Shown here: in pieces, positions 16,490 to 48,643 of the stretch
Position numbering within the stretch: position 1 is the first letter of the stretch
Layout of the letters: each line of letters opens with the position of its first letter
Origin: Candidatus Fermentithermobacillaceae bacterium
GTDB lineage: Bacteria > Bacillota > Sulfobacillia > Fermentithermobacillales > Fermentithermobacillaceae
Assembly (NCBI GenBank): GCA_018052475.1
Contig: JAGPNG010000002.1
Location: 62,001 to 126,000 of the forward strand
Direction of reading: 5' to 3'
DNA length: 64,000 nt
Made by a program: the position numbers and the translations under genes
Notes under the pieces: generated by a model
The model's input: the letters and a program-made list of their open reading frames with translations, nothing else
Database searches by the model: none
Told to the model about the DNA's origin: nothing

Positions 16490-16776
16490 GGTACACTGAG
16501 TATCTATGAGGGAATCTTGCGGGCAGCGTCCGGGGATGGTGAATGGATCGCCAATTTACTGTATAGTAAAGCTGTAGAGATTCAAACTCTTTTCAGCACT
16601 ACATGCTCGTCTTTGATGAGATTGGCGCAACGAAAAGAGGAATATTGCTAAACTAAGCGAAATTACTCATACCGATAGCATATCAACTCAACTTCGTATC
16701 TGACACGTAGCTTTATATTAGTTCATCGAAAATGCTCTCAAGTTAACATTTCGGACTAGGAAAGGAGGTTGCGCCC
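16490..16776. other. intergenic region between guaB and the MutL-like gene
   Basis: No convincing gene, tRNA or known riboswitch pattern is visible in these ~290 bases. It is AT-richer than the flanks and must hold the promoter for the downstream trio, but no hexamer pair is good enough to call. A strong AAAGGAGG site ends the region. Confidence 0.5.
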
Positions 16777-18585
16777 TTGTTTCGAAGAATCCTAGCGGCA
16801 GACATTGGCAGTACCACCACAAAAACCGTGCTTTTCGAAAGAAAAGACGACAAGTGGGCACTTGTGGGAAAGACTTCGGTTCCTACAACTGTTGAAGCTC
16901 CCCATCTTGACGTAATGATCGGACTTAAGAGTGCGCTATCTAGGCTGCAAGAGCGCACGGGTGTCCATATTCTAGAAGATTCAAGGCTTCTTATCGGCAT
17001 GGAGGGGGACGCAGGTGTAGACGCTTTGGTAGGCACATCGAGCGCCGGCGGAGGACTGCAGATGGTTGTGGCAGGCTTGGTCAAAGAGCTCACGGCAGAA
17101 TCTGCACACAGGGCAGCTCTTGGAGCAGGCGCTATTGTGGCCGATGTCATTGCGATCGATGATTCGAGAAGCACAATTGAGAAAATAGAGACCGTGAAAC
17201 GGATCAGACCTGACATGATCCTAATAACCGGGGGCACCGACGGTGGGAACATCTCGGAAGTGGCGTCTATTGCGGAAATCGTCGCCATGGGAACGCCGGA
17301 GCCTAGATTTGGCAAGGATTTCAAGCTGCCTGTTATCTTTGCGGGAAATGTTCAGGCGCGTCCCATCATAGAGAGGATTTTTGAAAAGCAGTCCGAGCGT
17401 ATGTACGTTGTCTATACAGACAACATACGACCTGTGCTTGAAAAAGAGGTGCTTGAGCCTGCAAGGAGAGCCATTCACGAATTGTTTCTGGAACATGTGA
17501 TGATGCATGCTCCGGGCTATGCTACGTTAGTTGCGTGGACACAAGGTAATGTGAAGCCCACACCTGTGGCAGTAGGAGATGCGCTAACGTACGTGAGCGA
17601 AATAGCTCAAGGTGACGTCTTGGCTGTTGACGTCGGAGGAGCGACCACCGACGTATTTTCCGTTATCGACGGTGAGTTTTATAGAACGGTATCCGCCAAC
17701 CTGGGCATGTCATATAGCATGGGAAATGTACTGGGTGAAGCAGGTATAGATGCGATCATGAGGTGGTTGCCTGGGAAATGGGATGACGACATTTTGAGGA
17801 ACTGGAATTTCAACAAAATGATAAGGCCGACCACATTACCTCAGACGCTAGAAGAACTCATGCTGGAGCAAGTAGTTTGCAAAGAAGTTCTGCGGCTCTC
17901 AATGAATCACCATAGGATGCTCATTCGCGAGCTCAAAGGAGTACAGCGGCGCCGCACTATCGGTGATATGTTTTACCAGACGCCCGGTGGGGAAACCCGG
18001 GTCGACATGATGAAAGTAAAAGCTATTGTAGGCACAGGCGGCGCTCTTTCCTATGCTCCTCGACGAAATCAGGCCGCTATGATACTCGTAGACGGCTTTC
18101 AACCGGAAGGCATAACCGATCTTTATGTCGACAGCCAGTTCTTGTTGCCGCACATGGGCGCCCTTATGGATATTGACAAAGAAATAGCTGCCCAGATGAT
18201 GATGACTGAATGCTTAATCCCTTTGGGTACTTGTATAGCGCCCATGGGACCGCGCGTCAGTCCAGGTAGTGTCATGGCGCAAGTCAAAATCCGAGGACGC
18301 ACCTATGAAGTGGTTGGAGGAGAGATCACGGTAATCCCTATCGACGATGCGGATGCAACAACCATAGAAGTTATTCCCGGAAGGAACTTTGATGTAGGAG
18401 CAGGTCCGGGTAAGCCCATGACGAAAGAGGCGGTAGGCGGCGTTACAGGCGTTATTCTTGACGGACGAGCTCGCCCCATAGTGTTTCCTGCGGCCAATGG
18501 CTACCAGTATGGAGCTGTAGCACGCTGGTATAGCGAGTTCGATGCTTACCCTGCTGAATTCCTAGATGAATTGACGAGGAGGTGA
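16777..18585 (+). CDS. MutL/GlmL-like ASKHA-fold ATPase (mutase-associated)
   Basis: 602 residues from TTG 16777, behind AAAGGAGGTTG. The opening ADIGSTTTKTVLFE is a phosphate-1 loop and VLAVDVGGATTDVF at about 286-299 a phosphate-2 loop, so this is an actin/Hsp70-like ATPase. DMILITGGTDGGN, GNVQARP and MAQVKIRGRTYEVVGGEI fit the MutL/GlmL family, whose genes usually sit between subunits of adenosylcobalamin-dependent amino-acid mutases and are thought to help repair or chaperone them. No mutase subunit is seen here. The gene overlaps the start region of the next one, so the two are co-translated. Role: possibly a reactivating ATPase for a remote enzyme. Confidence 0.8.
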   Translation: MFRRILAADIGSTTTKTVLFERKDDKWALVGKTSVPTTVEAPHLDVMIGLKSALSRLQERTGVHILEDSRLLIGMEGDAGVDALVGTSSAGGGLQMVVAGLVKELTAESAHRAALGAGAIVADVIAIDDSRSTIEKIETVKRIRPDMILITGGTDGGNISEVASIAEIVAMGTPEPRFGKDFKLPVIFAGNVQARPIIERIFEKQSERMYVVYTDNIRPVLEKEVLEPARRAIHELFLEHVMMHAPGYATLVAWTQGNVKPTPVAVGDALTYVSEIAQGDVLAVDVGGATTDVFSVIDGEFYRTVSANLGMSYSMGNVLGEAGIDAIMRWLPGKWDDDILRNWNFNKMIRPTTLPQTLEELMLEQVVCKEVLRLSMNHHRMLIRELKGVQRRRTIGDMFYQTPGGETRVDMMKVKAIVGTGGALSYAPRRNQAAMILVDGFQPEGITDLYVDSQFLLPHMGALMDIDKEIAAQMMMTECLIPLGTCIAPMGPRVSPGSVMAQVKIRGRTYEVVGGEITVIPIDDADATTIEVIPGRNFDVGAGPGKPMTKEAVGGVTGVILDGRARPIVFPAANGYQYGAVARWYSEFDAYPAEFLDELTRR

Positions 18586-18590
18586 GGCTA

Positions 18591-20015
18591 GTGGCTTTGA
18601 TGTCTACTCTTAAAATACTTGATATAGCAAGAATTGAGAAAGAAAGGAAAATCCCTACACCCGGTGAGGTTATGGTCAAAGTAGGTGATGTTTCGGCCCC
18701 TGACACTATCATTGCCAAGACTGAATTCATAAGAGGAAACCCGTACGTAATTGATCTCAAATCAGAGCTCAAACGTCCGTTAGATATGGATTTGGTCGAT
18801 AGCGTGTTGCTTAAAAAAGAAGGAGATCATGTACAGACAGGTGAGATAGTCGCTAGGTACCAGAAAGATTTTTGGTCTCCTGTCATAGAGGTGAAATCGC
18901 CTTGTGACGGGTTTATAGAACATATCTCAAGATTGAACGGTCAGATAGTCATTCGTGAAGATCCTCGGTCGGCAAGGCCATTGACCATTGTTGCCGCAGC
19001 GTCGCGGTTGTCTGTTCCGGCGCGGCTTCTTCGGATGTTTACAACCGTGAAGGAAGGCGAGTTTGTCAATGAGGGGCAGATAATCGCCGCTGCACCCGGA
19101 GTTGCGTCAGTAGATTTTGTATATGCGCCTATGAGCGGCGTAGTTGAGAAGATCTGCACCCTTACAGGTACTATTACTATTGCTAGGGTGATCAAGCACA
19201 TAGAGGTGCTGGCGCATATCCCGGGAGTAGTTAAGAGCATTGTACCCGACTATGGGGCAGTTGTGGAAACTGTCGGCGCATATATCCAAGGTGTATTTGG
19301 CATAGGGTACGAAGCTTATGGGCAGCTCTTGTTGCTAAGCGATGGGCCAAGGGAACCCATTTTGAGCGAGAGAATGGACAAAGAAGACGTAAAGGGTAAG
19401 GTCTTGGTGGGTGGTTCTTACGCAAGTGATGAAGTGGTTAGAAAAGCAAAGGAGAAAGGAGCTGCAGGTCTCATTATCGGCGGGGTAGACCAAAAGAGTC
19501 TGGTTTCTGTCCTCGGTAAAGAAATGTCTGCCGGTATCACAGGCTACGAAGAGTCAGATTTTACAATCATCATGCTAGAGGGGTTTGGAGAACTTCCCAT
19601 GAACGAACAGGCTTGGGATATCCTATCAAGCCGTGAAGGCAAGATTGCTTGCATAAACGGTACAACTCAGATAAGGGCAGGCGTAATAAGGCCGGAGATC
19701 GTGATCCCTGCTGACGATTTTGAAAAGTTGCTTAGCGACCCGTCTATCGACCAAATTCCTGTCGTGTCAGCATCTCAGTACGTCGAGTCCTCATCACATG
19801 TCATGTTTGCAGAAATCGAAAAAGGTGGGAGAGTAAGGTGCATAAGGCCCCCGTATTTCGGGATGTGGGGCTTCGTAGAAGACATAAGCCCAATGCCTGA
19901 ACAGGTTGAATCTGAGATTACTACAGAAGTAGCCGTGGTTAGGTTAGACGACGGGCGCCTTGTGAAAGTGCCTCAGGCTAATCTCGAGGTTTTTCCTAAT
20001 AGATCTCGGGAGTGA
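18591..20015 (+). CDS. uncharacterised barrel-sandwich (lipoyl-like) protein with KOW-like end
   Basis: About 474 residues; GTG 18591 with AGGAGGTGAG seven bases upstream is the best start. Three lipoyl/biotinyl-like hairpin segments can be read: GDHVQTGEIVARY...SPCDGFIEHI, EGEFVNEGQIIAA...APMSGVVEKI and HIPGVVKSIVPDYGAVVET. The last resembles RnfC-type sandwich domains. A Rossmann-like part follows (KVLVGGSYASDEVV...GAAGLIIGGVD). The end (GMWGFVEDI...VVRLDDGRLVKVPQANLEVF) resembles a KOW/NusG-like beta barrel. No conserved biotinylation Lys motif (MKM) is visible. It probably forms one unit with the upstream ATPase. Function unknown. Confidence 0.7.
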   Translation: MALMSTLKILDIARIEKERKIPTPGEVMVKVGDVSAPDTIIAKTEFIRGNPYVIDLKSELKRPLDMDLVDSVLLKKEGDHVQTGEIVARYQKDFWSPVIEVKSPCDGFIEHISRLNGQIVIREDPRSARPLTIVAAASRLSVPARLLRMFTTVKEGEFVNEGQIIAAAPGVASVDFVYAPMSGVVEKICTLTGTITIARVIKHIEVLAHIPGVVKSIVPDYGAVVETVGAYIQGVFGIGYEAYGQLLLLSDGPREPILSERMDKEDVKGKVLVGGSYASDEVVRKAKEKGAAGLIIGGVDQKSLVSVLGKEMSAGITGYEESDFTIIMLEGFGELPMNEQAWDILSSREGKIACINGTTQIRAGVIRPEIVIPADDFEKLLSDPSIDQIPVVSASQYVESSSHVMFAEIEKGGRVRCIRPPYFGMWGFVEDISPMPEQVESEITTEVAVVRLDDGRLVKVPQANLEVFPNRSRE

Positions 20016-30264: not shown

Positions 30265-30294
30265 TTGAATATACAGCTGGAATGGGATTATAAT
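30265..30294 (+). promoter_or_regulatory. candidate sigma-A promoter upstream of cassette 1
   Basis: TTGAAT (30265-30270), an 18-base spacer and a perfect TATAAT (30289-30294). It would give a leader of about 195 bases before the gene at 30497. Confidence 0.5.
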
Positions 30295-30324
30295 GAAAAG
30301 TTAAACATAGATGAATAAAGAAGA

Positions 30325-30349
30325 AGGATTTTGCCGAACTCCGTCGAAG
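30325..30349 (+). promoter_or_regulatory. AGGATTT-N11-GTCGAAG element (sigma-H-like or 0A-box-like) of cassette 1
   Basis: AGGATTT (30325-30331) is followed after 11 bases by GTCGAAG (30343-30349), close to the sigma-H pattern RnAGGAwWW-N11-RnnGAAT remembered from Bacillus. The same stretch also holds two 0A-box-like heptamers 10 bases apart: TGCCGAA (30332-30338) and CGTCGAA (30342-30348). Cassette 2 has AGGA and GTCGAA at the identical offset. Rest of 30164-30496: no gene seen. Confidence 0.5.
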
Positions 30350-30496: not shown

Positions 30497-31324
30497 ATGA
30501 CTAATTTGTTGATTTTGGCTGCAGAAGCGCCGGCTAGAAAATGGGGCATCTTTGTACCGGATGACAGCACGATATTCGGTCTCTTCTTCGGGATCTTTAT
30601 GCTGATCTTGGTGTACGTCATGATCCAACGTGCCAGAGCCGGGTTGCCGATTCCCGAGATCCGCCGGATCCCCGGAATGGAGGCTTTTGAAGAGGCTGTA
30701 GGCAGAGCGACTGAGATGGGCAGGCCGGTTCACATCACCAACTACTCAGCTGACGTTGGAGACTATGACACTTGGGCATTCTGGTCATATCTGGCACACG
30801 TGGCAAAACTGTGTGCTTCGTATGACACGAGGATAATCAACACCAACGCCGAGTACCTGACCATGACAGTTAACGAAGAGATCATTAAGCAGGCTTATCT
30901 TGAAGCCGGAAGGCCAGACGCTTTCAACCCGGACGATGTAAGGTTCGTTTCGCCCTGGCAGTTTGGCTACACCATGGGTGTCGCTGGAATAATTGCCCGA
31001 GAAAAACCGGCAGCGAACTTCCTAACGGGCTATTTCTATGCAGAAGCACTCATATTGGCTGAAGCGGGTGCGTTGGTAGGAGCGATTCAGGTTGCTGCAA
31101 GTGCTTCAACCGCCCAGCTGCCTTTCTTCATTGCCGCTTGCGACTATACCATGATTGCTGAGGAATTCTATGCCGGAGCAGCCGCTCTATCCAAGGAACC
31201 TGTCATCTACGGTTCGGTGGTTGCCCAGGACATAGGGCGTGTCGTCCTTACTGCTCTCATTATCGTAGGCGCAATCATGAACACTTTCGGTAGCGATGCG
31301 ATCATAAGGCTGACCAAGTTCTAG
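30497..31324 (+). CDS. cassette 1 gene A: DUF6754-like membrane-associated protein
   Basis: 275 residues, ATG 30497 with AAAAGGAGGTGA upstream. One N-terminal membrane helix (about 25-45) precedes a large domain with EEAVGRATEMGRPVH at about 66-80, AREKPAANF at about 171-179, QLPFFIAACDYTMIAEEFYAGAAALS at about 208-233 and GSVVAQDIG, then a hydrophobic C-terminal helix (about 246-264). It resembles proteins annotated DUF6754; that name is from memory. The motifs are repeated in the paralogue at 43298. No known catalytic motif is visible. First gene of a four-gene run; its partners are at 31358, 32112 and 33048. Confidence 0.72.
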   Translation: MTNLLILAAEAPARKWGIFVPDDSTIFGLFFGIFMLILVYVMIQRARAGLPIPEIRRIPGMEAFEEAVGRATEMGRPVHITNYSADVGDYDTWAFWSYLAHVAKLCASYDTRIINTNAEYLTMTVNEEIIKQAYLEAGRPDAFNPDDVRFVSPWQFGYTMGVAGIIAREKPAANFLTGYFYAEALILAEAGALVGAIQVAASASTAQLPFFIAACDYTMIAEEFYAGAAALSKEPVIYGSVVAQDIGRVVLTALIIVGAIMNTFGSDAIIRLTKF

Positions 31325-31357: not shown

Positions 31358-32014
31358 TTGAAAAGGGAAGTCCCAATGGTATTGACCCTCATATTCGCCA
31401 TCATCCGATGCGGGTTTGAGTTGATTGAGCCTATGCTTTCCTGGGAATTAGCACCGGGCCAAACAGTATTCTCAAGGTTGTCCTTTTCAATCACGTTCAT
31501 GACCGTTATGGGCCTCTTAATGGGACTCATTAACCTTACGCGACTCCACGTGAACACAATTAGGCGCAAACGGGAAAACTGGGTGTATAGTATATGGCTG
31601 CTTTTTGTACTGTACGGTTACGCTATCGTAGGACTCGGATGGGGGCCTAATGGCACCACTTTCAACTGGATCTATGAAGCGGTGATCGTTCCTCTTGACT
31701 CAACCATGTTCTCGATGCTGGCATTTTTCATCGCGTCTGCGGCATATAGAGCCTTTAGAGCAAGAAATATCGAAGCCAGTATATTGCTGGTGGTCGCGTT
31801 CATAGTGATGCTTGGCAACGTATCCATAGGAGAAATGATATGGAGTTCCTCGGGTTGGTTAGGAGGATTCAAAGGTATCAAGGACTGGATATTGGCGGTA
31901 CCCAACGTCGCACATGCCCGAGCGCTTGCAATAGGAATATTCCTCGGGGCGTATGCGGCTACCTTGCGTGTGTTTCTGGGACTGGACAAGAAATATCTTG
32001 GCGGTACTGACTAG
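31358..32014 (+). CDS. cassette 1 gene B: polytopic membrane protein
   Basis: 218 residues, TTG 31358 with AAGGAGGTGAAG upstream. Six or so hydrophobic segments. The diagnostic pieces, shared with the paralogue at 44094, are the start MKREVPMVLT, the cytosolic-loop motif FFIASAAYRAFRARN, MLGNVSIGEMIWS and the end GLDKKYLG. I do not recognise a named family. It probably forms a membrane complex with the products of genes A, C and D. Confidence 0.65.
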   Translation: MKREVPMVLTLIFAIIRCGFELIEPMLSWELAPGQTVFSRLSFSITFMTVMGLLMGLINLTRLHVNTIRRKRENWVYSIWLLFVLYGYAIVGLGWGPNGTTFNWIYEAVIVPLDSTMFSMLAFFIASAAYRAFRARNIEASILLVVAFIVMLGNVSIGEMIWSSSGWLGGFKGIKDWILAVPNVAHARALAIGIFLGAYAATLRVFLGLDKKYLGGTD

Positions 32015-32111: not shown

Positions 32112-32963
32112 GTGACATTTTGGGAGAAGTTGGCAGTTATTGACCCAAGATGGATTTTTCTTGGAATGGCTGTTCTCCTTACTTTCCCCGTGCTGAGCCC
32201 CTTAGGTCTGGCCATTACAATTGACCAGGAAACGACAGTACCTATCTACAACTGGATTGAGAATCTTAATCCGGGAGATATAGTGTTTGCCGACGTGTCT
32301 TTCAGCGGAGGTTCCGAAGGAGAGCTGGGCCCCCAGCTTCAGGCCTGGTTTAGGCATTGCCTGCAAAAGGGCGTCAAAGTCGTATGGGTTGCTCAGTGGA
32401 ACACAGGTGAACGGTTGGGGTACAACATGTGCGTGGAGGTTACTGAGAAGCTCGAAGAAGAGGGCATTCACACTGAGTATGGAGTAGATTGGGTGTACGT
32501 AGGCTGGAAAGCCGGCGGCACTACCATGTGGCGCAATATGCAGATCGATTTCTGGGATGCATGCGCAGGAACCGACATGCTCGGGAATTCGTTCGATGAC
32601 CTTCCGCTGATGGAAAGAGTGCGGAAGTGGGATAAAGAGACATGCAAGGGCATTATGCTGTTTACTGCAGGTTCCCCGGGAGTTCCTACCTACACAACGT
32701 ATTTCCATGATTACGACATCTATCTTGGAGACGTTGCGGTACAGGTTCCAGGGAACATGAACTTGCTCAGGTCGGGGCAGATAAAGGGAATCCTTTGCGG
32801 TCTGCCGGGAGCAGCTCAGTATGAGATCCTTTTGGAGAAACCAGGCAGGGCAGTAAAACTCATGGATGCTCAGTCACTGGGTCACCTTTGGATTATGGTA
32901 CTTGTTATCTTGGGGAACATTGGTTTCTATGTGAGAAGGAAAAGCGGCACACCGGTAGATTGA
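32112..32963 (+). CDS. cassette 1 gene C: protein with terminal membrane anchors and alpha/beta domain
   Basis: 283 residues, GTG 32112 with AGGGAGGGAAATG upstream (the ATG just before runs into a stop). A membrane helix lies at about 15-34 and another at about 258-276, with a roughly 220-residue alpha/beta domain between. That domain has Rossmann-like strands (DIVFADVSFSGG, GVKVVWVAQWNTG, GIMLFTAGSPGVPTY, LLRSGQIKGILCGLPGAAQYE) and ends DAQSLGHL before the last helix. The paralogue at 44736 keeps SPG, SGTPGVP, QSGQIVGMI, GAAGYE and DAQSISHL. Four Cys occur here that the paralogue mostly lacks. Function unknown; it may bind a small ligand. Confidence 0.65.
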   Translation: MTFWEKLAVIDPRWIFLGMAVLLTFPVLSPLGLAITIDQETTVPIYNWIENLNPGDIVFADVSFSGGSEGELGPQLQAWFRHCLQKGVKVVWVAQWNTGERLGYNMCVEVTEKLEEEGIHTEYGVDWVYVGWKAGGTTMWRNMQIDFWDACAGTDMLGNSFDDLPLMERVRKWDKETCKGIMLFTAGSPGVPTYTTYFHDYDIYLGDVAVQVPGNMNLLRSGQIKGILCGLPGAAQYEILLEKPGRAVKLMDAQSLGHLWIMVLVILGNIGFYVRRKSGTPVD

Positions 32964-33047: not shown

Positions 33048-33653
33048 TTGACAACTGCTCAAGTCTGGGTTGCCGCACTTTGTACCCTGGCAGTTTACAG
33101 TTATCTATATAAAGAAAATCCGGCGTACAGAATCGCTGAATATACGCTCGTGGCTCTGTACACATCTTACTCAATAACCCTGGACTTTCATGAATACTTG
33201 ATACCCTACGCCCAGCGGTATGCTATAGAAGAAGGTCAATGGTATTTCTGGGTGATGGGCGCGCTAGGCTTGCTCCTTTATTTCCGGTATGCTCCGCCAA
33301 AGTATAACTGGCTTGCCAGGTATCCGATTTCTATCGCTGTTGGATGGGGTTTGGGATACAACCTGATTAGACTCCCCAGGCCGGTTATGGTCCAGGTGAG
33401 GGATGCAATGAGACCTTTGAATACAGTGAATAACGTGCTGTTCTTTGTATTCTTCCTGTGCATTCTGTTCTACTTCTTCTTTACGACAGGCAAGGAGTCT
33501 AAGTTCATACAGGGTTCCGGCCGAATCGGCAGGTACATCATGATGGTTGGATTTGGATGTGCATTTGGAAATACGGTTCAAGGGCGTATTTCTTTGTTCC
33601 TAAACAGGCTGTCTTTCTTGTTGATAGATTGGCTTGGCATACAGATCTGGTAA
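33048..33653 (+). CDS. cassette 1 gene D: polytopic membrane protein
   Basis: 201 residues, TTG 33048 with GGGAGGTGA upstream. About five membrane spans. Shared with the paralogue at 45569 are the opening YSYLYKENPAYRIAEYTLV, LLLYFRY, RYPISIAVGWGLGYNL, MRPLNTVNNVLFF and GRYIMMVGFGCAFGNTVQGRISLFLNRL. Unknown family. It ends cassette 1 and is followed by a strong terminator, so A-D form one transcript. Confidence 0.65.
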   Translation: MTTAQVWVAALCTLAVYSYLYKENPAYRIAEYTLVALYTSYSITLDFHEYLIPYAQRYAIEEGQWYFWVMGALGLLLYFRYAPPKYNWLARYPISIAVGWGLGYNLIRLPRPVMVQVRDAMRPLNTVNNVLFFVFFLCILFYFFFTTGKESKFIQGSGRIGRYIMMVGFGCAFGNTVQGRISLFLNRLSFLLIDWLGIQIW

Positions 33654-40562: not shown

Positions 40563-40627
40563 AGAAACGGATGTCTGTGATTTTGGGTGGTTAGTTTTTG
40601 CCGGATTGCAATAAAATGACGGTATGT

Positions 40628-40651
40628 GCGGCGGCTTTGCCCGCCGCTTTT
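40628..40651 (+). terminator. intrinsic terminator between rpmA and obg
   Basis: GCGGCGG (40628-40634), a six-base loop and CCGCCGC (40641-40647), followed by TTTT. A GC-rich 7-bp stem. obg starts 45 bases later, so partial read-through or a separate promoter must serve obg. Confidence 0.7.
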
Positions 40652-40695
40652 GGTATTATAGCCTTGCCCTTTTGGGCTTGGGAGGAGTTTTCGAG

Positions 40696-41715
40696 TTGGG
40701 TGCGCGTTTCATCGATAGAGCAAAGATATATGTTAAAGCCGGAGATGGGGGAAATGGATGCGTTGCATTTCGCCGGGAGAAGTTTGTGCCTTTTGGCGGG
40801 CCGGCAGGAGGAGATGGGGGCAACGGAGGCAACGTCATTTTTGTAGTTGACCCGAACATAAACACGTTACTGGATTTCAGACACAGACCCCACCTTGTTG
40901 CCCAGAACGGGCGTCCTGGAGAAGGGAGCAACAGGTCCGGAAAGAAAGGGAAGGACTTGGTCATTATGGTGCCCCCAGGTACCGTTTTGTTTGACGCTGA
41001 AACAGGCGAGATGATTGCAGATCTTACCGATGTGGGCCAAGAAGTAGTGGTCGCAAAAGGTGGCAAAGGAGGTAAGGGTAATGCCAGATTCGCGACTTCG
41101 GTCAATCAGGCACCTAGGAAGTTCGAAGAAGGCAAACCCGGAGAAGAGCGCTGGATTCAACTGGAGCTTAAGTCAATCGCAGACGTTGGACTGGTAGGTC
41201 TTCCAAACGCGGGAAAGTCTACTCTACTGCGGGCGATATCAAAAGCTACTCCGGAAGTCGGACCTTATCCGTTCACAACTCTTACTCCCCACTTGGGTGT
41301 TGTCGATGGCGATGGTTGCAGGTTTGTAGTTGCAGACATACCGGGACTTATAGAGGGCGCCAGTGAAGGAAAGGGCCTAGGGCACGAGTTCTTGAGGCAC
41401 ATCGAAAGGACCCAGGTACTTCTTTATGTGATAGATGGGTGCAACGGTTTTAAGGCTGCTATCGATGATTTTGTCACAGTGCAACGTGAGGTTATGCAAT
41501 ATAGCGAAGATATGAAGAGGAAAGAAAGCCTAGTTGCGATAAACAAGATAGATTTGGTAGGCTCTACCGAAGAATTAAAGGAACTTAAGGAGAATTTTGA
41601 ACAATTCTTGCAAAAACCAGTCTTTTTGATCTCAGCCGAGCAAAAAACAGGGATAAACCCCCTCATTTCTGAGCTTTGTCACATTTTGGAGGCTGAAAAG
41701 AAGGATTTTGGGTAG
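40696..41715 (+). CDS. obgE: GTPase ObgE/CgtA, short form lacking the OCT domain
   Basis: 339 residues from TTG 40696, with GGGAGGAG eight bases upstream. The start is placed to give the usual ARFIDRAKIYVKAGDGGNGC opening. The glycine-rich Obg fold (about 1-160) contains FVPFGGPAGGDGGNGG. The G domain has GLPNAGKSTLL (P-loop), a DIPGLIEGASEGKGLG switch II and NKIDL. It ends shortly after SAEQKTG, so the C-terminal OCT domain present in many Firmicutes Obg proteins is missing. It functions in 50S maturation and stress control. Confidence 0.95.
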   Translation: MGARFIDRAKIYVKAGDGGNGCVAFRREKFVPFGGPAGGDGGNGGNVIFVVDPNINTLLDFRHRPHLVAQNGRPGEGSNRSGKKGKDLVIMVPPGTVLFDAETGEMIADLTDVGQEVVVAKGGKGGKGNARFATSVNQAPRKFEEGKPGEERWIQLELKSIADVGLVGLPNAGKSTLLRAISKATPEVGPYPFTTLTPHLGVVDGDGCRFVVADIPGLIEGASEGKGLGHEFLRHIERTQVLLYVIDGCNGFKAAIDDFVTVQREVMQYSEDMKRKESLVAINKIDLVGSTEELKELKENFEQFLQKPVFLISAEQKTGINPLISELCHILEAEKKDFG

Positions 41716-41786
41716 ATTTAGAGAATACAAGAAAAAACTCTAAAGGCTAATTTCGACGAGGGTTACTTGGTTTTGGAGGCATGTTA

Positions 41787-42434
41787 GTGACAGCGATTGG
41801 TATAATGGGTGGCACTCTCGATCCGATTCACTATGGACATCTCAGAGCCGCTGAAGAGGTATTGCAAGGGTTTGGGCTTAGACGAGTGGTGTTTGTACCT
41901 TCAGGTAGGCCTCCGCATAAGTCCCCTGCTGAAGTGACTTCTGCCGAACACAGATATATGATGGCAGAACTTGCTACTGCCGACAATCCGAATTTTGAGG
42001 TGTCCAGAATTGAGATCGATAGAGAAGGGCCTTCTTACACGATAGATACCCTCAGAGAGTTCAGGAGCGCTCTTGGCAGTGACACAAAAATCTATTTCAT
42101 AACAGGGCTTGACGCAATAGTTGATGTTTATACTTGGAATGAATTTGAACATCTATTTGAACTTGCCGAATTCATCGCGGTGTCGAGACCCGGATACAGT
42201 GTCGAAACCTTGGGTACTCTTGAAAAGGTGATTGGGCCCGAGCGCTTTAGCAAAATACACCACTTTCCTATCACGCTATTGGCCATTGCATCTCGTGAGA
42301 TAAGGCAGCGAGTCAAAGAGGGCAGGTCAATCCGGTATCTGGTGCCAGAATCAGTGCGTCTATATGTTGAAAAAGGCGGGCTTTACACCGAAAGCACAAG
42401 CAAGAAGTTTTGGCTTCCCGGTTGTCTAGATTGA
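41787..42434 (+). CDS. nadD: nicotinate-nucleotide adenylyltransferase
   Basis: 215 residues. GTG 41787 has GGAGG seven bases upstream; ATG 41781 is only one base from it and less likely. GIMGGTLDPIHYGHL carries the HxGH nucleotide-binding motif, VPSGRPPHK and the late ASREIRQRVKEG (ISSTxIR motif) complete the family pattern. It adenylates nicotinate mononucleotide in NAD synthesis. In Firmicutes it typically lies next to obg and yqeK, here separated from yqeK by the RRM gene and cassette 2. Confidence 0.95.
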   Translation: MTAIGIMGGTLDPIHYGHLRAAEEVLQGFGLRRVVFVPSGRPPHKSPAEVTSAEHRYMMAELATADNPNFEVSRIEIDREGPSYTIDTLREFRSALGSDTKIYFITGLDAIVDVYTWNEFEHLFELAEFIAVSRPGYSVETLGTLEKVIGPERFSKIHHFPITLLAIASREIRQRVKEGRSIRYLVPESVRLYVEKGGLYTESTSKKFWLPGCLD

Positions 42435-42571
42435 TGTGGGTGTTAGGTTAGAGCGGAAGCGAATGTGCAGGCTTCCCTGTATTTGCTGCACAATAGAAAA
42501 TCAGGTATCTAGCTGTAAGCTCAAGGTGATGTTGGGGATCGGTCAGGTTCTATGAGGGGAGGTGCGTATTT

Positions 42572-42826
42572 GTGAGGACTCTATATGTTGGAAATTTGCC
42601 ATGGGAGACGACCAGTGAGGAACTATCTGAAATGTTCAGCGCGTATGTAAATGTGCTAAACTGCCGTATTATCACGGATAGAGATACTGGGAGATCCAGA
42701 GGTTTTGGGTTCGTTGAAGTTAACGATGAAGACGTAGAAAAGGCCATAGAAGCGATCAATGGCGCTATGCTCGGTGGCCGACAGTTGGTAGTAAACGAAG
42801 CAAGACCGAGGCAGCCCAGGATGTAA
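42572..42826 (+). CDS. RRM-type RNA-binding protein
   Basis: 84 residues, GTG 42572 with GGGGAGGTG upstream. A single RNA recognition motif fills the protein: RNP2 is LYVGNLPW at about 4-11 and RNP1 is SRGFGFVEV at about 42-50. Such stand-alone RRM proteins occur in many bacteria and bind single-stranded RNA; targets are unknown. Monocistronic, followed by a terminator. Confidence 0.92.
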   Translation: MRTLYVGNLPWETTSEELSEMFSAYVNVLNCRIITDRDTGRSRGFGFVEVNDEDVEKAIEAINGAMLGGRQLVVNEARPRQPRM

Positions 42827-42954
42827 TCACACAAGACGCCGGGAGAAAGTATATCGGTTTTCTGAAGTTATCCGGGACTACATGACGGTATCAATAAAGA
42901 TGGGCGCGATAGCGATAGCGCCTGGTGGCAAAGAAGCAATTTGATCTTTGTAGT

Positions 42955-42983
42955 ACGGCATGGCTGAAAGGCTATGCCGTTTC
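42955..42983 (+). terminator. terminator after the RRM gene
   Basis: ACGGCATGGC (42955-42964) pairs with GCTATGCCGT (42971-42980) with one G:T pair and a six-base loop, then TTTC. A smaller GGCGC/GCGCC hairpin lies upstream (42903-42922). Confidence 0.65.
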
Positions 42984-43148
42984 GCTTTCTGCTGGGTTCA
43001 CGGCTCTTAGTGCGGCATCGCTAAGCGTTAGGTACGCTCTGGGCAAGTGAACAAAAACCGCTAGACGATGCATACTCAGATCGGAGAAATTCTTCCTGAG
43101 GACGTCCCATATTCCGTGTAAATTTTCAAAAGAATCGTGATCTCTTGA

Positions 43149-43173
43149 AGGAGTCTTACTTTTGTTGTCGAAT
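43149..43173 (+). promoter_or_regulatory. AGGA-N14-GTCGAAT element of cassette 2
   Basis: AGGA (43149-43152) and GTCGAAT (43167-43173) stand at exactly the offset found before cassette 1. The segment TGTCGAA (43166-43172) is also a perfect Spo0A 0A-box. Between it and the first gene a 7-bp inverted repeat ATGGCGA/TCGCCAT (43209-43235) could fold in the leader. In the rest of 42984-43297 I see no gene. Confidence 0.5.
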
Positions 43174-43297
43174 TATATACAATTGGCAGCTATGTAGGCG
43201 GTTGAGAAATGGCGAGGAGGTATCCGAGTCGCCATGGAAAGGAAACAAGAAAGCATTTTGATTAGCGATTCAGAGAATTATGGGAGGTGATTCTGCT

Positions 43298-44077
43298 TTG
43301 ACTTTAGTAAAAGGCAGAGTTTTTTCATTTTGGCTGCTCGTAATAGTTATTGGTTGCCTTTTGTACTCTATGTGGAAGGCGTCAAAGGGAGGCAATGTCT
43401 CGATAAGGAAGATTGCCGGACTTGACTCCATTGAAGAAGCGGTTGGCCGTGCGACAGAAATGGGCAGACCCGTTCATTACTGTCCGGGCCTAGGAGGAAT
43501 AGGTGCTGTTGAAGCACCGCAGACGTTTTCCGGATTGGCGATCTTGAGTCACATCGCAAGACTGACTGCCAGGTTCGATGTGCCGCTCATTGTCACCATA
43601 AGGCAGCCTGAGGTATTTCCTATGGCCGAAGAAACGGTTAGGCAAGCGTATCTAGAGGAAGGTAAAAGCGACAGATACGATCCTAACAACATACGATTCC
43701 TTTCATCTCAGCAGTTTGCCTACGCTGCCGCGCTTCTGGGGATTATGGCTAGGGAACGGCCTGCCGCGAACTTCATGATGGGAGCCTTCTGGGCTGAATC
43801 CCTCATGTTGGCCGAGGTAGGTTCTGAGGTTGGTGCGCTGCAGATTACAGGCACCGCCCAGCTATCTCAGGTACCTTTTTTCGTGGCCTCTTCGGATTAT
43901 ACGCTCATCGGAGAAGAGCTCTTTGCAGCAGCAGCGTATCTTTCTGGAGACAGGATGCAGCTCGGTTCCATCGTAGGTCAGGATATGGCAAAAGTGATAG
44001 TAGCAGTTCTAATAATCGCCGGTGTAGTGACTCGAAGTTTTGGCTCTAATTTCTTCGGGGAACTTCTGAGCAAGTGA
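43298..44077 (+). CDS. cassette 2 gene A: DUF6754-like membrane-associated protein
   Basis: 259 residues, TTG 43298 with GGGAGGTGA seven bases upstream. It has the same plan as the protein at 30497 but a shorter N-terminus: one membrane helix at about 9-25, then EEAVGRATEMGRPVH, the motif ARERPAANF, QVPFFVASSDYTLIGEELFAAAAYLS and GSIVGQDM, and a final hydrophobic helix (about 232-250). The two copies align over their whole length but differ in many positions, so the duplication is old or one copy was acquired separately. No enzymatic motif recognised. Confidence 0.72.
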   Translation: MTLVKGRVFSFWLLVIVIGCLLYSMWKASKGGNVSIRKIAGLDSIEEAVGRATEMGRPVHYCPGLGGIGAVEAPQTFSGLAILSHIARLTARFDVPLIVTIRQPEVFPMAEETVRQAYLEEGKSDRYDPNNIRFLSSQQFAYAAALLGIMARERPAANFMMGAFWAESLMLAEVGSEVGALQITGTAQLSQVPFFVASSDYTLIGEELFAAAAYLSGDRMQLGSIVGQDMAKVIVAVLIIAGVVTRSFGSNFFGELLSK

Positions 44078-44093
44078 AAGGGGCGATAAGTCT

Positions 44094-44720
44094 ATGAAAC
44101 GTGAATTACCCATGATACTGGCGTTTATCGTCGGTTTACTCATGATTGTATCATTCTTTTTCTCGTCTGAGCCTTTGAGCCAAGCGGCCAATACGGTGCA
44201 GAACTGGGGAGTGATAATTGCAGCGTTTGCCCTAGGATTGGCTTCAATCAATCTTATTCAAATTCACGCGAAAAGAATCGTGAAGGGCAAGGACTTGGAC
44301 TGGCTGTATTCAGGAGCACTCTTGTTTTCTATGATAGGCATAGCGATACTGGGGATCGCCAAAGGGCCTACCGACACAAACTACCAATTCTGGTTCGATG
44401 CTCTTTTTGTTCCGGGACAAGCTACGGTATACGCGATGACCGGATTTTTCATTGCCTCGGCTGCATATAGAGCATTTAGGATTAGGAACCTTGATTCGGC
44501 GATATTATTGGTATCGGCGGCCATCCTGATGCTTGGCAATGTGCCGATCGGCGAGACGATATGGTCACAGTTCCCCGTGATAGGTGAATGGCTGATGAAC
44601 ATTCCTAACCTGGCAGGGCAGCGGGGCATGCTCATAGGTGCCGGAATTGGCGGCATAGCCTCAGGCGTAAGGGTGCTTCTAGGGATCGAAAGAACGTACC
44701 TAGGCAGCTCAAGCTCATAA
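44094..44720 (+). CDS. cassette 2 gene B: polytopic membrane protein
   Basis: 208 residues, ATG 44094 after AAAGGGGCG, 17 bases from gene A. About six spans. It shares MKRELPMIL, FFIASAAYRAFRIRN, MLGNVPIGETIWS and GIERTYLG with the protein at 31358. The FFIASAAYRAFR loop is the best-conserved piece and may be the functional or interaction site. No known family. Confidence 0.66.
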   Translation: MKRELPMILAFIVGLLMIVSFFFSSEPLSQAANTVQNWGVIIAAFALGLASINLIQIHAKRIVKGKDLDWLYSGALLFSMIGIAILGIAKGPTDTNYQFWFDALFVPGQATVYAMTGFFIASAAYRAFRIRNLDSAILLVSAAILMLGNVPIGETIWSQFPVIGEWLMNIPNLAGQRGMLIGAGIGGIASGVRVLLGIERTYLGSSSS

Positions 44721-44735
44721 AAGGAGGGACAAACA

Positions 44736-45569
44736 TTGTTTGATAAGCTCGTACACATGGACCGCCGTGTTATATATGGAGTTGTTTTTCTGTCCCTCAC
44801 TATTCCCCTTATTTGGCCTATAGGTCTTGGAGTAGTAGTAGGGCCGGAGACGAAACAACTCTATGACATGGTTGAAGCATTACCCAGTGGCAGTGCGGTT
44901 ATAGTATCGATGGACACTTCTCCGGGCGGATATGGGGAGTTGTCTTCCGGCTCACTGGCGCTTTTGAACCATCTTGCGGAGAAAGGCATAAGAGTGATAG
45001 GCATGGGCTTTTTTGATACAGGCCCAAGTCTTTTGGAAACTGCGCTTGGTGGCTCCAAGTTTCGCGATAAGGAGTACGGGGTAGACTATGTAAACCTTGG
45101 GTACCTCGCCGGCGGAGAAACTGCCATGGCAAAGGTAGCCAAAGATATACTCGACAGCTTTCCAAGAGATTACAGAGGTAACGTTACCAGCGACCTTCCT
45201 GTTATGAAAGGCATAACTTCATGCGAGGATATAGCTCTTATAATTAGCATTTCGTCAGGAACTCCGGGAGTACCTGAGTGGATAAGGCAAGTTGGTGACC
45301 CTCTAGGTGTTCCCATTGCCACGGTTATCGTTGCGGTGAATGTGCCCAATATGACTCCTTATGTCCAGTCGGGGCAGATCGTTGGCATGATACCAAGCAT
45401 GAAGGGTGCGGCGGGGTATGAGAGCCTTATGGGTACTGCCGGACTCGGCACAAGGGGAATGGACGCTCAGTCAATTTCCCATCTGACCATACTTGGGTTG
45501 GTAGTGCTCGGTAACGTAGTATATCTTGCGACGAAAAATACTAAGCCCTCCGAAGGAGGTGCCCACTAA
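44736..45569 (+). CDS. cassette 2 gene C: protein with terminal membrane anchors and alpha/beta domain
   Basis: 277 residues, TTG 44736 with AAAAGGAGGG upstream. Membrane helices at about 12-32 and 248-265 flank an alpha/beta domain with SAVIVSMDTSPGGYGE, KGIRVIGMGFFDTG, DIALIISISSGTPGVPEW, PIATVIVAVNVPNM and YVQSGQIVGMIPSMKGAAGYE, ending DAQSISHL. The strand-loop pattern resembles a Rossmann or periplasmic-binding-like half, but no nucleotide motif (GxGxxG) is present. Its last base is the first base of gene D's start codon (TAATG), so they are translationally coupled. Confidence 0.66.
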   Translation: MFDKLVHMDRRVIYGVVFLSLTIPLIWPIGLGVVVGPETKQLYDMVEALPSGSAVIVSMDTSPGGYGELSSGSLALLNHLAEKGIRVIGMGFFDTGPSLLETALGGSKFRDKEYGVDYVNLGYLAGGETAMAKVAKDILDSFPRDYRGNVTSDLPVMKGITSCEDIALIISISSGTPGVPEWIRQVGDPLGVPIATVIVAVNVPNMTPYVQSGQIVGMIPSMKGAAGYESLMGTAGLGTRGMDAQSISHLTILGLVVLGNVVYLATKNTKPSEGGAH

Positions 45570-46174
45570 TGCGGATAAGTGGCGATCTTGGAACGTGGAT
45601 TGCGGCTATAGCTACCATAGGTATTATGAGTTTTGTCTTCAAAGACAACCCGCTTTACAGAATTGTTGAAAATGTCTACGTAGGGGTGTCTGCAGGGCAT
45701 GCTCTTGTATTAGGTTGGATAAACATAAGGGACCAAGGCATAACTCCTTTGACTTCTGAGGGTGAGTGGAGTGTCATAATCCCTTTGTTGCTAGGATTGC
45801 TTCTCTATACCAGATACTTCAAGGATATAGCATGGCTTTCCAGATTCCCCCTGTCCATCTTGGTAGGTATAGGAACAGGTTTAGCCATTAGGGGGACAAT
45901 CGGATCCCAGATAGTCAACCAAGTGAAAAGCACTGTACTTCCGCTAAACAACATCAATAATGCCATTATCGTCTTTGGAACGCTTGGAGTCCTTTCTTAC
46001 TTCTACTTCTCCAAAGAACACAGAGGAGTTCTCAAGCATGTTTCAACTTTTGGAAGATGCGTTATGATGGTGTCTTTTGGCGCAGCATTCGGAAGCACAG
46101 TTATGGGGCGTATGGCACTTCTTATCGACAGGCTGTACTTCCTTTACTCCAACTGGTTGGGTATCATTAGGTAA
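45569..46174 (+). CDS. cassette 2 gene D: polytopic membrane protein
   Basis: 201 residues, ATG 45569 with GAAGGAGGTG upstream. About five spans. It matches the protein at 33048 in FKDNPLYRIVENVYVG, LLLYTRY, RFPLSILVGIGTGLAI, VLPLNNINNAIIVF and GRCVMMVSFGAAFGSTVMGRMALLIDRL, and is exactly the same length. Unknown family. Last gene of cassette 2. Confidence 0.66.
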   Translation: MRISGDLGTWIAAIATIGIMSFVFKDNPLYRIVENVYVGVSAGHALVLGWINIRDQGITPLTSEGEWSVIIPLLLGLLLYTRYFKDIAWLSRFPLSILVGIGTGLAIRGTIGSQIVNQVKSTVLPLNNINNAIIVFGTLGVLSYFYFSKEHRGVLKHVSTFGRCVMMVSFGAAFGSTVMGRMALLIDRLYFLYSNWLGIIR

Positions 46175-46216
46175 GATTAGGTCCATTGGGCATTGATCTG
46201 GATTGAGACTCTTTGG

Positions 46217-46240
46217 GGCGGGCGGCAAGAGCCGTCCGCC
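46217..46240 (+). terminator. GC-rich stem-loop after cassette 2
   Basis: GGCGGGCGGC (46217-46226) pairs with GCCGTCCGCC (46231-46240), one G:T pair, four-base loop AAGA. No T-run follows, so it may stabilise the 3' end or terminate weakly. Confidence 0.5.
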
Positions 46241-46344
46241 TCATGCGTAAAGGAGACCAAGAGTCCCCTTATTGTGTTAGACTGTCATTGCAACCCGCGC
46301 TAAGGTTTTGATGTCTAATAATATAGGGGGATATCAGTCAGTTG

Positions 46345-46920
46345 ATGTATAGTCATATTCACGATTTTGTGAGAAATCGTATCGATGAAGAACGGTTTGT
46401 ACACAGTGAGAATACGGCTTGTTATGCATATGATATCGCACAGACTTATGGAGTTGATCCCGAAAGAGCTTATTTGTCAGGATTGCTTCATGACATCGCT
46501 AGAGATCTCTCACCCCAAGAGATTTTGCGAGTGGCATTAAAAGAAGGTATAATACCTAGAAAAGAAGAGCGCATTTGTCCTTTTTTATTGCACGGGAAGG
46601 TTGGGGCGCAGATAGTTAAAGAAGAAATCGGTCTTTTGGATGAGGGAGTCCTTAATGCAATTTCTTTTCATGTTACGGGAAGACCAAATTGGACCAGATT
46701 GGAACAGGTCCTTTATCTGGCTGATAAGGCTGAGCCGGAAAGAGTCTATCCTGGAGCGGATAGGATACGAGATCTGCTGAAAAGAGGAGATTTTGAGGGC
46801 GCCCTCTTTGAATGTCTGCGCGAAAATATTATATATGCAGCCAAGACTCAAGGCTGGATTGTGGACACTGACACGGTGGTGATATTTAATGGGATGGCGA
46901 CGAGATTCTCATCGAAGTAA
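46345..46920 (+). CDS. yqeK: HD-domain diadenosine tetraphosphate hydrolase YqeK
   Basis: 191 residues from ATG 46345 (the adjacent TTG 46342 is possible); AGGGGG lies upstream. HSENTACYAYDIA, GLLHDIARDLS and the later ISFHVTGRP and YLADKAEPER are the His/Asp metal ligands of the HD fold in YqeK. It splits Ap4A symmetrically to two ADP. It is conserved next to nadD, LCP and rsfS in Firmicutes. The 3' end overlaps the next gene by about 30 bases. Confidence 0.93.
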   Translation: MYSHIHDFVRNRIDEERFVHSENTACYAYDIAQTYGVDPERAYLSGLLHDIARDLSPQEILRVALKEGIIPRKEERICPFLLHGKVGAQIVKEEIGLLDEGVLNAISFHVTGRPNWTRLEQVLYLADKAEPERVYPGADRIRDLLKRGDFEGALFECLRENIIYAAKTQGWIVDTDTVVIFNGMATRFSSK

Positions 46921-48202
46921 TTCCGGGAACGATATTGATGAAACAAGGATATATGAAATGCCGAAAGAGTCAGTCAAGCCGCAGAAGCGGCGACGGCTAA
47001 AGAAGGCGTGGATAGTAGTGCTGGCAGTCGTTTTGTTCGGGGCAGGTACTGTCTTCGGAATGTACTCTTATCTAAAAGCGTACTCTAGCAGTTATCCTTT
47101 TTCGAGTGGCGATGTGGTGGCCGAAAGTTCCAGGATAAACATACTTGTTATAGGCATAGATGGCGGAGTGAACGGAAAAGTAAATACTTCAGGGAAGACA
47201 GGAACACGGTCGGATGTGATGATGGTTGTAAGTATTGACCCTGAACTCAAAAAGGTCGGCATACTATCTGTTCCGAGAGACACTCGGGTTTTGATACCTA
47301 CGGTAAATAGCATAGAAAAGGCAGGACATGCTCATGCCTATGGCGGACCCGACCTTGTTGTCGAAACCTTAGAGAACCTGCTCGAGATAGATATCCATCG
47401 ATACGTGCGAGTTGACTTCGAAGGCTTTAAGAAAGTTATCGATGTTTTGGGTGGGGTATATATCGATGTGCCGGAAGACATGGATTATGAAGATCCTTAC
47501 CAGAACCTTTATATTCACATAGAGAAAGGTCCTCAGGTTCTCAATGGCGAAAAGGCTTTGGGATTTGTTCGGTACAGGCAGTACAGAAATGCAGATATTG
47601 GAAGAATAGAAGCACAGCACCTTTTTTTGCAGGCACTTGCAGATAAAGTTCTCAGCGTCGCAACTCTGCCTAAGATACCTCAGTTAGTATCGGAGATTAT
47701 GCCCTACGTTGTGACCGATCTTTCTAACGAGGATATCATGTACTTGGCTTCTGTGGGGCTCAATATGAAGATGCAAGACGTTGAGATGGGCGTTTTGCCT
47801 GGAAGCGATGGATATATAGGCGATTTGAGTTATTGGCTTGTCGATGCAGAAAAGGCCCAAGAGGCTGTTGATAGGCTTATAAGAGGCATAGATCGTACCA
47901 AGAACGCTAACGTCAAAGTGTCTGTACAAAACGGATGCGGAATTCCCGGCGCCGCTGATTACGTTGCTTCGATTCTAAGGAGCTACGATTTTCAAGTGGT
48001 GAGCGTGGACGATGCTAGCCGGTTTGACTATAAAGAAACGAGAGTGTTGGCCCCTAAGGAACAAAAGGACGTCCAGATAGAGATCTTAAGGATTCTAAAG
48101 AGCACTTCTGATCAGGCAAAAGCGTACGTTTCTCACGACCTACCGGATGAAGCGGATGTGTTGGTCATAATAGGCAATGACTTTAGCAAATATGGGCAGT
48201 AA
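46889..48202 (+). CDS. LCP (LytR-CpsA-Psr) family protein with LytR_C domain
   Basis: 437 residues from ATG 46889 (GGTGGTGA upstream); ATG 46958 is an alternative that drops 23 residues. A basic segment KPQKRRRLKK precedes one membrane helix (about 40-60). The extracellular LCP domain follows: ILVIGIDGG, GTRSDVMMVVSIDP, GILSVPRDTRV, GGVYIDVPEDMDY and LGFVRYRQY...DIGRIEAQ with the Arg and Asp residues that bind polyprenyl pyrophosphate. A LytR_C domain (about 345-437) starts NVKVSVQNGCGIPGAADYV. LCP enzymes attach teichoic acids or other glycans to peptidoglycan. Confidence 0.92.
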   Translation: MGWRRDSHRSNSGNDIDETRIYEMPKESVKPQKRRRLKKAWIVVLAVVLFGAGTVFGMYSYLKAYSSSYPFSSGDVVAESSRINILVIGIDGGVNGKVNTSGKTGTRSDVMMVVSIDPELKKVGILSVPRDTRVLIPTVNSIEKAGHAHAYGGPDLVVETLENLLEIDIHRYVRVDFEGFKKVIDVLGGVYIDVPEDMDYEDPYQNLYIHIEKGPQVLNGEKALGFVRYRQYRNADIGRIEAQHLFLQALADKVLSVATLPKIPQLVSEIMPYVVTDLSNEDIMYLASVGLNMKMQDVEMGVLPGSDGYIGDLSYWLVDAEKAQEAVDRLIRGIDRTKNANVKVSVQNGCGIPGAADYVASILRSYDFQVVSVDDASRFDYKETRVLAPKEQKDVQIEILRILKSTSDQAKAYVSHDLPDEADVLVIIGNDFSKYGQ

Positions 48203-48238
48203 GAAGCTGGGTCCGTACGGACTTATCTTAAGGGAGGC

Positions 48239-48643
48239 GTGATTTTTATAGACAGGACCGATACAGGAAATAAAGGATCTTTCCAGTCTGATCCTGAGGC
48301 GCGAGCTGCAAGAGAGTTTGCGGTTGACGCTGCCAGAGCTTTATATGATGGAAAAGGTCTAGATGTTGACATACTGGACGTAAGAGAAGTCACCCTCATC
48401 GCAGACTATTTTGTCATTGCATCCGGCTCTAGCGTAAGGCATGTTAAAGGCCTTGCAGACCGCGTACTCTACCTATCTGAGGGCAAAAGAAAACCAATTC
48501 ACGTGGAAGGCTATCAGCTAGGCACTTGGGTCCTTTTGGACTACGGGGACGTAGTAGTGCACATATTTAGAGAGTCGGAGCGAAGTTTCTATGGTTTGGA
48601 GCGGCTCTGGGGTGACGCACCTATGGTGGACTTTTCCAAGTAA
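48239..48643 (+). CDS. rsfS: ribosomal silencing factor RsfS
   Basis: 134 residues, GTG 48239 directly after GGGAGGC (close spacing). DARALYDGKG-like DAARALYDGKGLDVDILDVREVTLIADYFVIASG and the end WVLLDYGDVVVHIFRESERSFYGLERLWGDAP are diagnostic. It binds L14 and blocks subunit joining in starved cells. It lies where expected, after yqeK and LCP. Confidence 0.95.
   Translation: MIFIDRTDTGNKGSFQSDPEARAAREFAVDAARALYDGKGLDVDILDVREVTLIADYFVIASGSSVRHVKGLADRVLYLSEGKRKPIHVEGYQLGTWVLLDYGDVVVHIFRESERSFYGLERLWGDAPMVDFSK

Follow-up and report, generated by a model that had tools for sequence, protein, structure and literature searches.

The window analysed here, a stretch of 64,000 nucleotides from the genome of an uncultured Candidatus Fermentithermobacillaceae bacterium (genome G000, 1.4 Mb in 23 contigs, 92.6% complete), contains two copies of a four-gene cassette, A-B-C-D, both encoded on the forward strand. 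In copy 1, gene A (30497..31324) is followed by genes for membrane protein B (31358..32014), protein C (32112..32963) and membrane protein D (33048..33653), none of which matches a Pfam family; the TTG start of gene B was picked by its likeness to copy 2 (MKREVP/MKRELP). Copy 2 consists of genes A (43298..44077), B (44094..44720), C (44736..45569) and D (45569..46174). Both A proteins belong to the DUF6754 family (PF20539), scoring 291 bits (copy 1) and 318 bits (copy 2) against a curated cut-off of 27. Copy 2 is embedded in a usually housekeeping cluster (40624-48643) with the order obg, nadD, the cassette, an HD domain gene (yqeK-like), a LytR-like gene and an rsfS-like gene. A terminator-like hairpin at 42955-42990 (11 pairs, then TTCGCTTTCT) separates nadD from copy 2, so that transcription from the nadD promoter may end before the cassette.

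With regard to copy number, DUF6754 genes occur 11 times in the window's own genome, 15 times in G002, 14 times in the complete genome G004 and 27 times in G028, such that a genome of 1.4 Mb carries 11 cassettes and a relative up to 27, all as old, diverged paralogues. The order A-B-C-D is found at nearly all loci with enough DNA and also at most loci of other phyla. Our literature search retrieved no paper naming DUF6754, a Pfam family without described function; NCBIfam holds no family for A to D, and a PDB sequence search gave nothing useful. A role in anti-phage defence was rejected, as PADLOC returned no match, and so was a known structured leader RNA, as the sole Rfam matches in the window are two tRNAs. 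AlphaFold2 models of the copy 2 proteins A and C (pLDDT 93.9 and 95.5, respectively) feature an alpha/beta domain between N- and C-terminal helices that are membrane-spanning by their look. The positive-inside rule would place the domain of A in the cytoplasm and that of C outside. Foldseek gave no match for either model at E <= 0.001, while VIA aligned both with Sir2-type chains (gene A: Z about 12, rmsd 3.3, 141 aligned; gene C: Z 9.4, rmsd 3.8, 140 aligned). The models thus suggest that A and C contain Rossmann-like domains, fold matches that give no function. Our best guess is that the cassette specifies a membrane complex with two Rossmann-like domains, that of A being cytoplasmic and that of C extracytoplasmic.

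A sequence-only reading of this DNA had drawn attention to an AGGA and a GTCGAA that recur at an identical 18-base offset upstream of both cassettes. Sequences and offsets were confirmed: the copy 1 element is AGGATTTTGCCGAACTCCGTCGAAG (30325-30349) and the copy 2 element AGGAGTCTTACTTTTGTTGTCGAAT (43149-43173), and GTCGAA indeed lies 154 and 131 bases, respectively, upstream of the gene A starts (ATG at 30497, TTG at 43298). AGGA-N14-GTCGAA has two matches in the window, both at cassettes, with 0.09 expected on the plus strand, and at other AGGA-to-GTCGAA spacings from 6 to 29 there is a single match, at spacing 27. Both sites can be read as promoters of the SigH type, with an RnAGGAwWW -35 element, a spacer of 11-12 bases and an RnnGAAT -10 element, if departures are allowed. 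On the plus strand, the copy 1 promoter (30323..30349) would comprise the -35 element GAAGGATTT (30323-30331), 11 bases and the -10 element GTCGAAG (30343-30349), and that of copy 2 (43147..43173) the -35 element GAAGGAGTC (43147-43155), 11 bases and GTCGAAT (43167-43173). RnAGGAwWW-N11-RnnGAAT is perfect in neither copy, copy 1 departing once (it ends in GAAG) and copy 2 twice (including GTC for WWW). In Bacillus subtilis and Clostridioides difficile, SigH (Spo0H) promoters have the same AGGA -35 and GAA(T) -10 elements and a spacer of 11-12 bases; AGGAGTTTTTATATTATTGTCGAATTATA, the promoter of C. difficile lplA, is close to the copy 2 site, AGGAGTCTTACTTTTGTTGTCGAATTATA, and ssuA of the same species shares GTCGAAG with copy 1 (PMC7438776).

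Beyond the window, AGGA-N17-GAA was present in 40 of 95 gene A leaders from 14 genomes of the family, compared to 3.3 +/- 1.7 in dinucleotide shuffles. This spacing forms a sharp peak, with 13 leaders at spacing 18 and 1 to 16 at any other spacing between 6 and 35, and 24 of the 95 leaders fit a fuller SigH consensus (0.3 in shuffles). Orthologous leaders are related, so the raw counts overstate the number of independent events; counted by orthologue cluster of gene A, 11 of 25 have the site. Among other Bacillota, 17 of 26 leaders contain AGGA-N17-GAA (13 with GAAT), corresponding to about 15 of 24 distinct leaders since two of them repeat a genome that had been included before (L127 = L023, L192 = L028), whereas leaders from other phyla have it in only two of 70 cases. 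No peak at spacing 17 was detected in 164 leaders of other genes from the same loci. Positions unused in the selection recover the SigH preferences, namely G at -2 (54/59), T/A after AGGA, G or A at position 18 (49/59) and T at position 24 (40/59).

An independent weight matrix, built from 29 promoters of the published C. difficile SigH table (PMC7438776), placed the copy 1 site third (score 18.2) and the copy 2 site fourth (16.0) among the 128,000 positions of the window. Scores of at least 12 were reached by 43 of the 95 family leaders (reverse complements: 3), by 18 of the 26 from other Bacillota (0) and by one of the 70 from other phyla (1). In the window's own genome, five of the 11 cassettes (copy 1, copy 2, C11, C14b and C9) score at least 16 and the other six, all below 9, are without the site; the element is not universal.

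It could be objected that the window offers just two sites, both mismatched and both in front of paralogous genes, and that the shared element arose by chance or was left behind by a duplication. The spacing peak, the conserved footprint, the independent matrix and the controls all contradict this, and we consider it barely credible. In the gene A tree, copies 1 and 2 fall into different orthologue groups, both older than the family, and the site is absent from sister copies. At 33-44% protein identity, the two cassettes are paralogues that diverged long ago, and the element is therefore not derived from recent duplication, just as the sequence-only reading had maintained.

Comparison of orthologous leaders, which that reading had recommended, revealed the copy 1 site throughout its orthologue group (7/7), four members of which come from a second genus, one that retains the sporulation markers. 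In the three species of the window's genus, AAGAAGGATTT and CGTCGAA stay unchanged at a single spacing, whereas the bases between and upstream of them differ; in G001 the copy 1 leader even carries the full consensus AGGATTT-N11-GTCGAAT. The copy 2 site, on the other hand, is confined to G000 and its close relative G002 among six cluster members, being degenerate in G001 and absent from the G003 and G004 orthologues.

The same leaders bear on the proposal that GTCGAA belongs to Spo0A boxes (TGNCGAA), making the cassettes direct targets of Spo0A in the manner of abrB. A spo0A gene is present in the genome and copy 2 contains an exact TGTCGAA, while the SigH -10 element in this lineage often reads GTCGAA. 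However, G001 and G002 do not conserve TGCCGAA, the first of the copy 1 heptamers, and TGNCGAA outside the element occurs at chance level (8/95 family leaders, with about 8.7 in shuffles; 1/26 in other Bacillota; 11/70 in other phyla). In addition, GTAGAA, which is no 0A box, works equally at the fixed distance from AGGA. The tandem 0A boxes suggested earlier by analogy to the abrB promoter thus find no backing in the conservation or enrichment of TGNCGAA, and direct Spo0A control through these motifs appears very improbable.

Copy 1 might alternatively be driven by a vegetative SigA promoter, with the AGGA/GTCGAA element secondary or unused. The TATAAT at 30289 that had been singled out as a potential competing start does exist, as part of TTGAAT-N18-TATAAT (30265-30294) with 10 of 12 consensus positions matched, but hits of this quality are at chance level (one found, mean 1.3 in shuffles), the TATAAT is lost in G001 where the SigH-type element is kept, and a search before copy 2 gave no SigA-like match. 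We regard this explanation as highly unlikely; dual SigA and SigH promoters may nevertheless exist.

SigH-type promoters call for the corresponding regulators, and both genes that the earlier reading proposed to look for are present in the genome: sigH (NF006148, 378 bits; TIGR02859, 358 bits) and spo0A (TIGR02875, 353 bits). All 20 genomes of cassette-bearing Bacillota that were tested encode SigH, and Spo0A occurs throughout the 14 genomes of the family, although the Spo0A effector domain scores lower in the window's genus (128-137 bits vs. 153-156). The close sigma-H pattern claimed for the element is therefore strongly supported by footprint, spacing peak, matrix, restriction to Bacillota and the presence of sigH and spo0A, even if neither copy in the window is perfect.

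Core sporulation genes present a different picture. None of the three genomes of the window's genus (metagenome-assembled genomes, 85-93% complete) has SpoIVA or SpoIIGA, and SigF, SigE, SigG and SigK are missing as well, while SpoIVA and SpoIIGA are present in the other 11 family genomes (one SpoIVA match is a fragment). Genomes of the window's genus encode five to six sigma factors compared to 8-18 elsewhere; those of G000 are SigA, SigH, a FliA/WhiG factor and three ECF factors. True loss is likely because three incomplete genomes lack the same genes, and the window's group appears to have lost spore formation. In B. subtilis, spoIVB is located between recN and spo0A; in the window's own genome (L001, contig C21, 49750-53061) spo0A directly follows a recN-like gene and spoIVB seems to be missing between them. 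For Candidatus Fermentithermobacillus carboniphilus Bu02, sporulation has been predicted (PMC10215811). The presence of Spo0A and SigH combined with the lack of SpoIVA, SpoIIGA and SigF/E/G/K points to expression at the transition phase and not during sporulation. Of the proposed tie to entry into stationary phase or sporulation, the transition or stationary phase part remains, and sporulation control of the cassettes is unlikely in the window's genus.

Genome-wide, the exact SigH pattern yielded 31 matches vs. eight for a reversed control. The genes behind them, a wider regulon read purely from pattern matches, include two cassettes, mraZ, ireB, nadD, several regulators and an ATP-synthase subunit c-like gene. 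The site before nadD (41700..41726, plus strand; GAAGGATTT-N11-AGAGAAT) ranks second in the window with a score of 19.4, and the nadD gene (about 41787-42434) has kept it in G002 and G001. At locus L105 (contig C18 of G000, minus strand) exact sites lie at 124190 and 124640, one of them just before mraZ, which heads a probable division cluster. Another exact site (L094, contig C10 of G000, 18597) is located upstream of two further MutL-like genes (C10:19541-25244).

The strongest SigH-like site of the window (16636..16662, plus strand; AGAGGAATA-N11-AGCGAAA; score 19.9, rank 1) precedes a gene pair about 10 kb from a cassette, encoding a MutL-like ASKHA protein (PF13941, 391 bits; 16777..18585, plus strand) and a barrel-sandwich (RnfC_N/biotinyl) protein (18582..20015, plus strand). 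Both are probable cassette partners as judged from gene neighbourhoods in other lineages, in which homologues of the pair are the commonest cassette neighbours, on either side of A-B-C-D; for the MutL-like protein, homologues adjoin cassettes in 23 loci. MutL/GlmL proteins (PF13941) belong to glutamate mutase operons; the probable partner is a full-length member of this family, and its homologues adjoin DUF6754 cassettes along with a barrel-sandwich protein. Strong sites precede the MutL-like orthologues in eight of 13 family genomes, representing three genera, at -78 to -142, and are missing in five. These sites suggest that the pair shares a regulon with the cassettes. Given the same promoter type and the adjacency in other phyla, cassette and partners are probably expressed together and may well share a function.

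Taken as a whole, the comparisons of leaders and genomes make it very likely that both cassettes lie behind SigH-type promoters, with control at the transition phase as the best reading; conservation, spacing, likeness to documented SigH promoters, confinement to Bacillota and the regulators present are shown, whereas use of the sites by SigH, operon transcription, timing and partnership are inferred. Both sites would act as -35/-10 elements for RNA polymerase with SigH, the sigma factor of the transition phase. Active at the end of growth, SigH would transcribe the downstream genes A-B-C-D, most likely as one unit, with the transcript starting a few bases past the -10 element, and the partner pair, behind the same promoter type, would be expressed together with the cassette. 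With the late sporulation programme gone and SigH and Spo0A kept, the site would serve transition or stationary phase physiology.

The DUF6754 cassette is not among the targets in the C. difficile SigH table (PMC7438776), and in contrast to B. subtilis and C. difficile the window's genus is devoid of the late sporulation programme. Retention of a SigH-like factor without sporulation has a precedent in Lactobacillus sakei, where the factor is reported to activate competence genes (PMC3364868). In the bacterium studied here, Spo0A is present too and the predicted targets are membrane cassettes. More tentatively, and with appreciable reservation, we propose that the DUF6754 cassette and its partners could form an undescribed membrane system that is under transition-phase (SigH) control and independent of sporulation in many Bacillota, that has expanded to as many as 27 copies in a genome and that stayed with SigH when the ability to sporulate disappeared. 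The likely timing of expression provides a first functional handle on a four-gene membrane cassette of many phyla, and the window's genus would offer a test case, with defined predicted targets, for the Spo0A/SigH circuit after the loss of sporulation.
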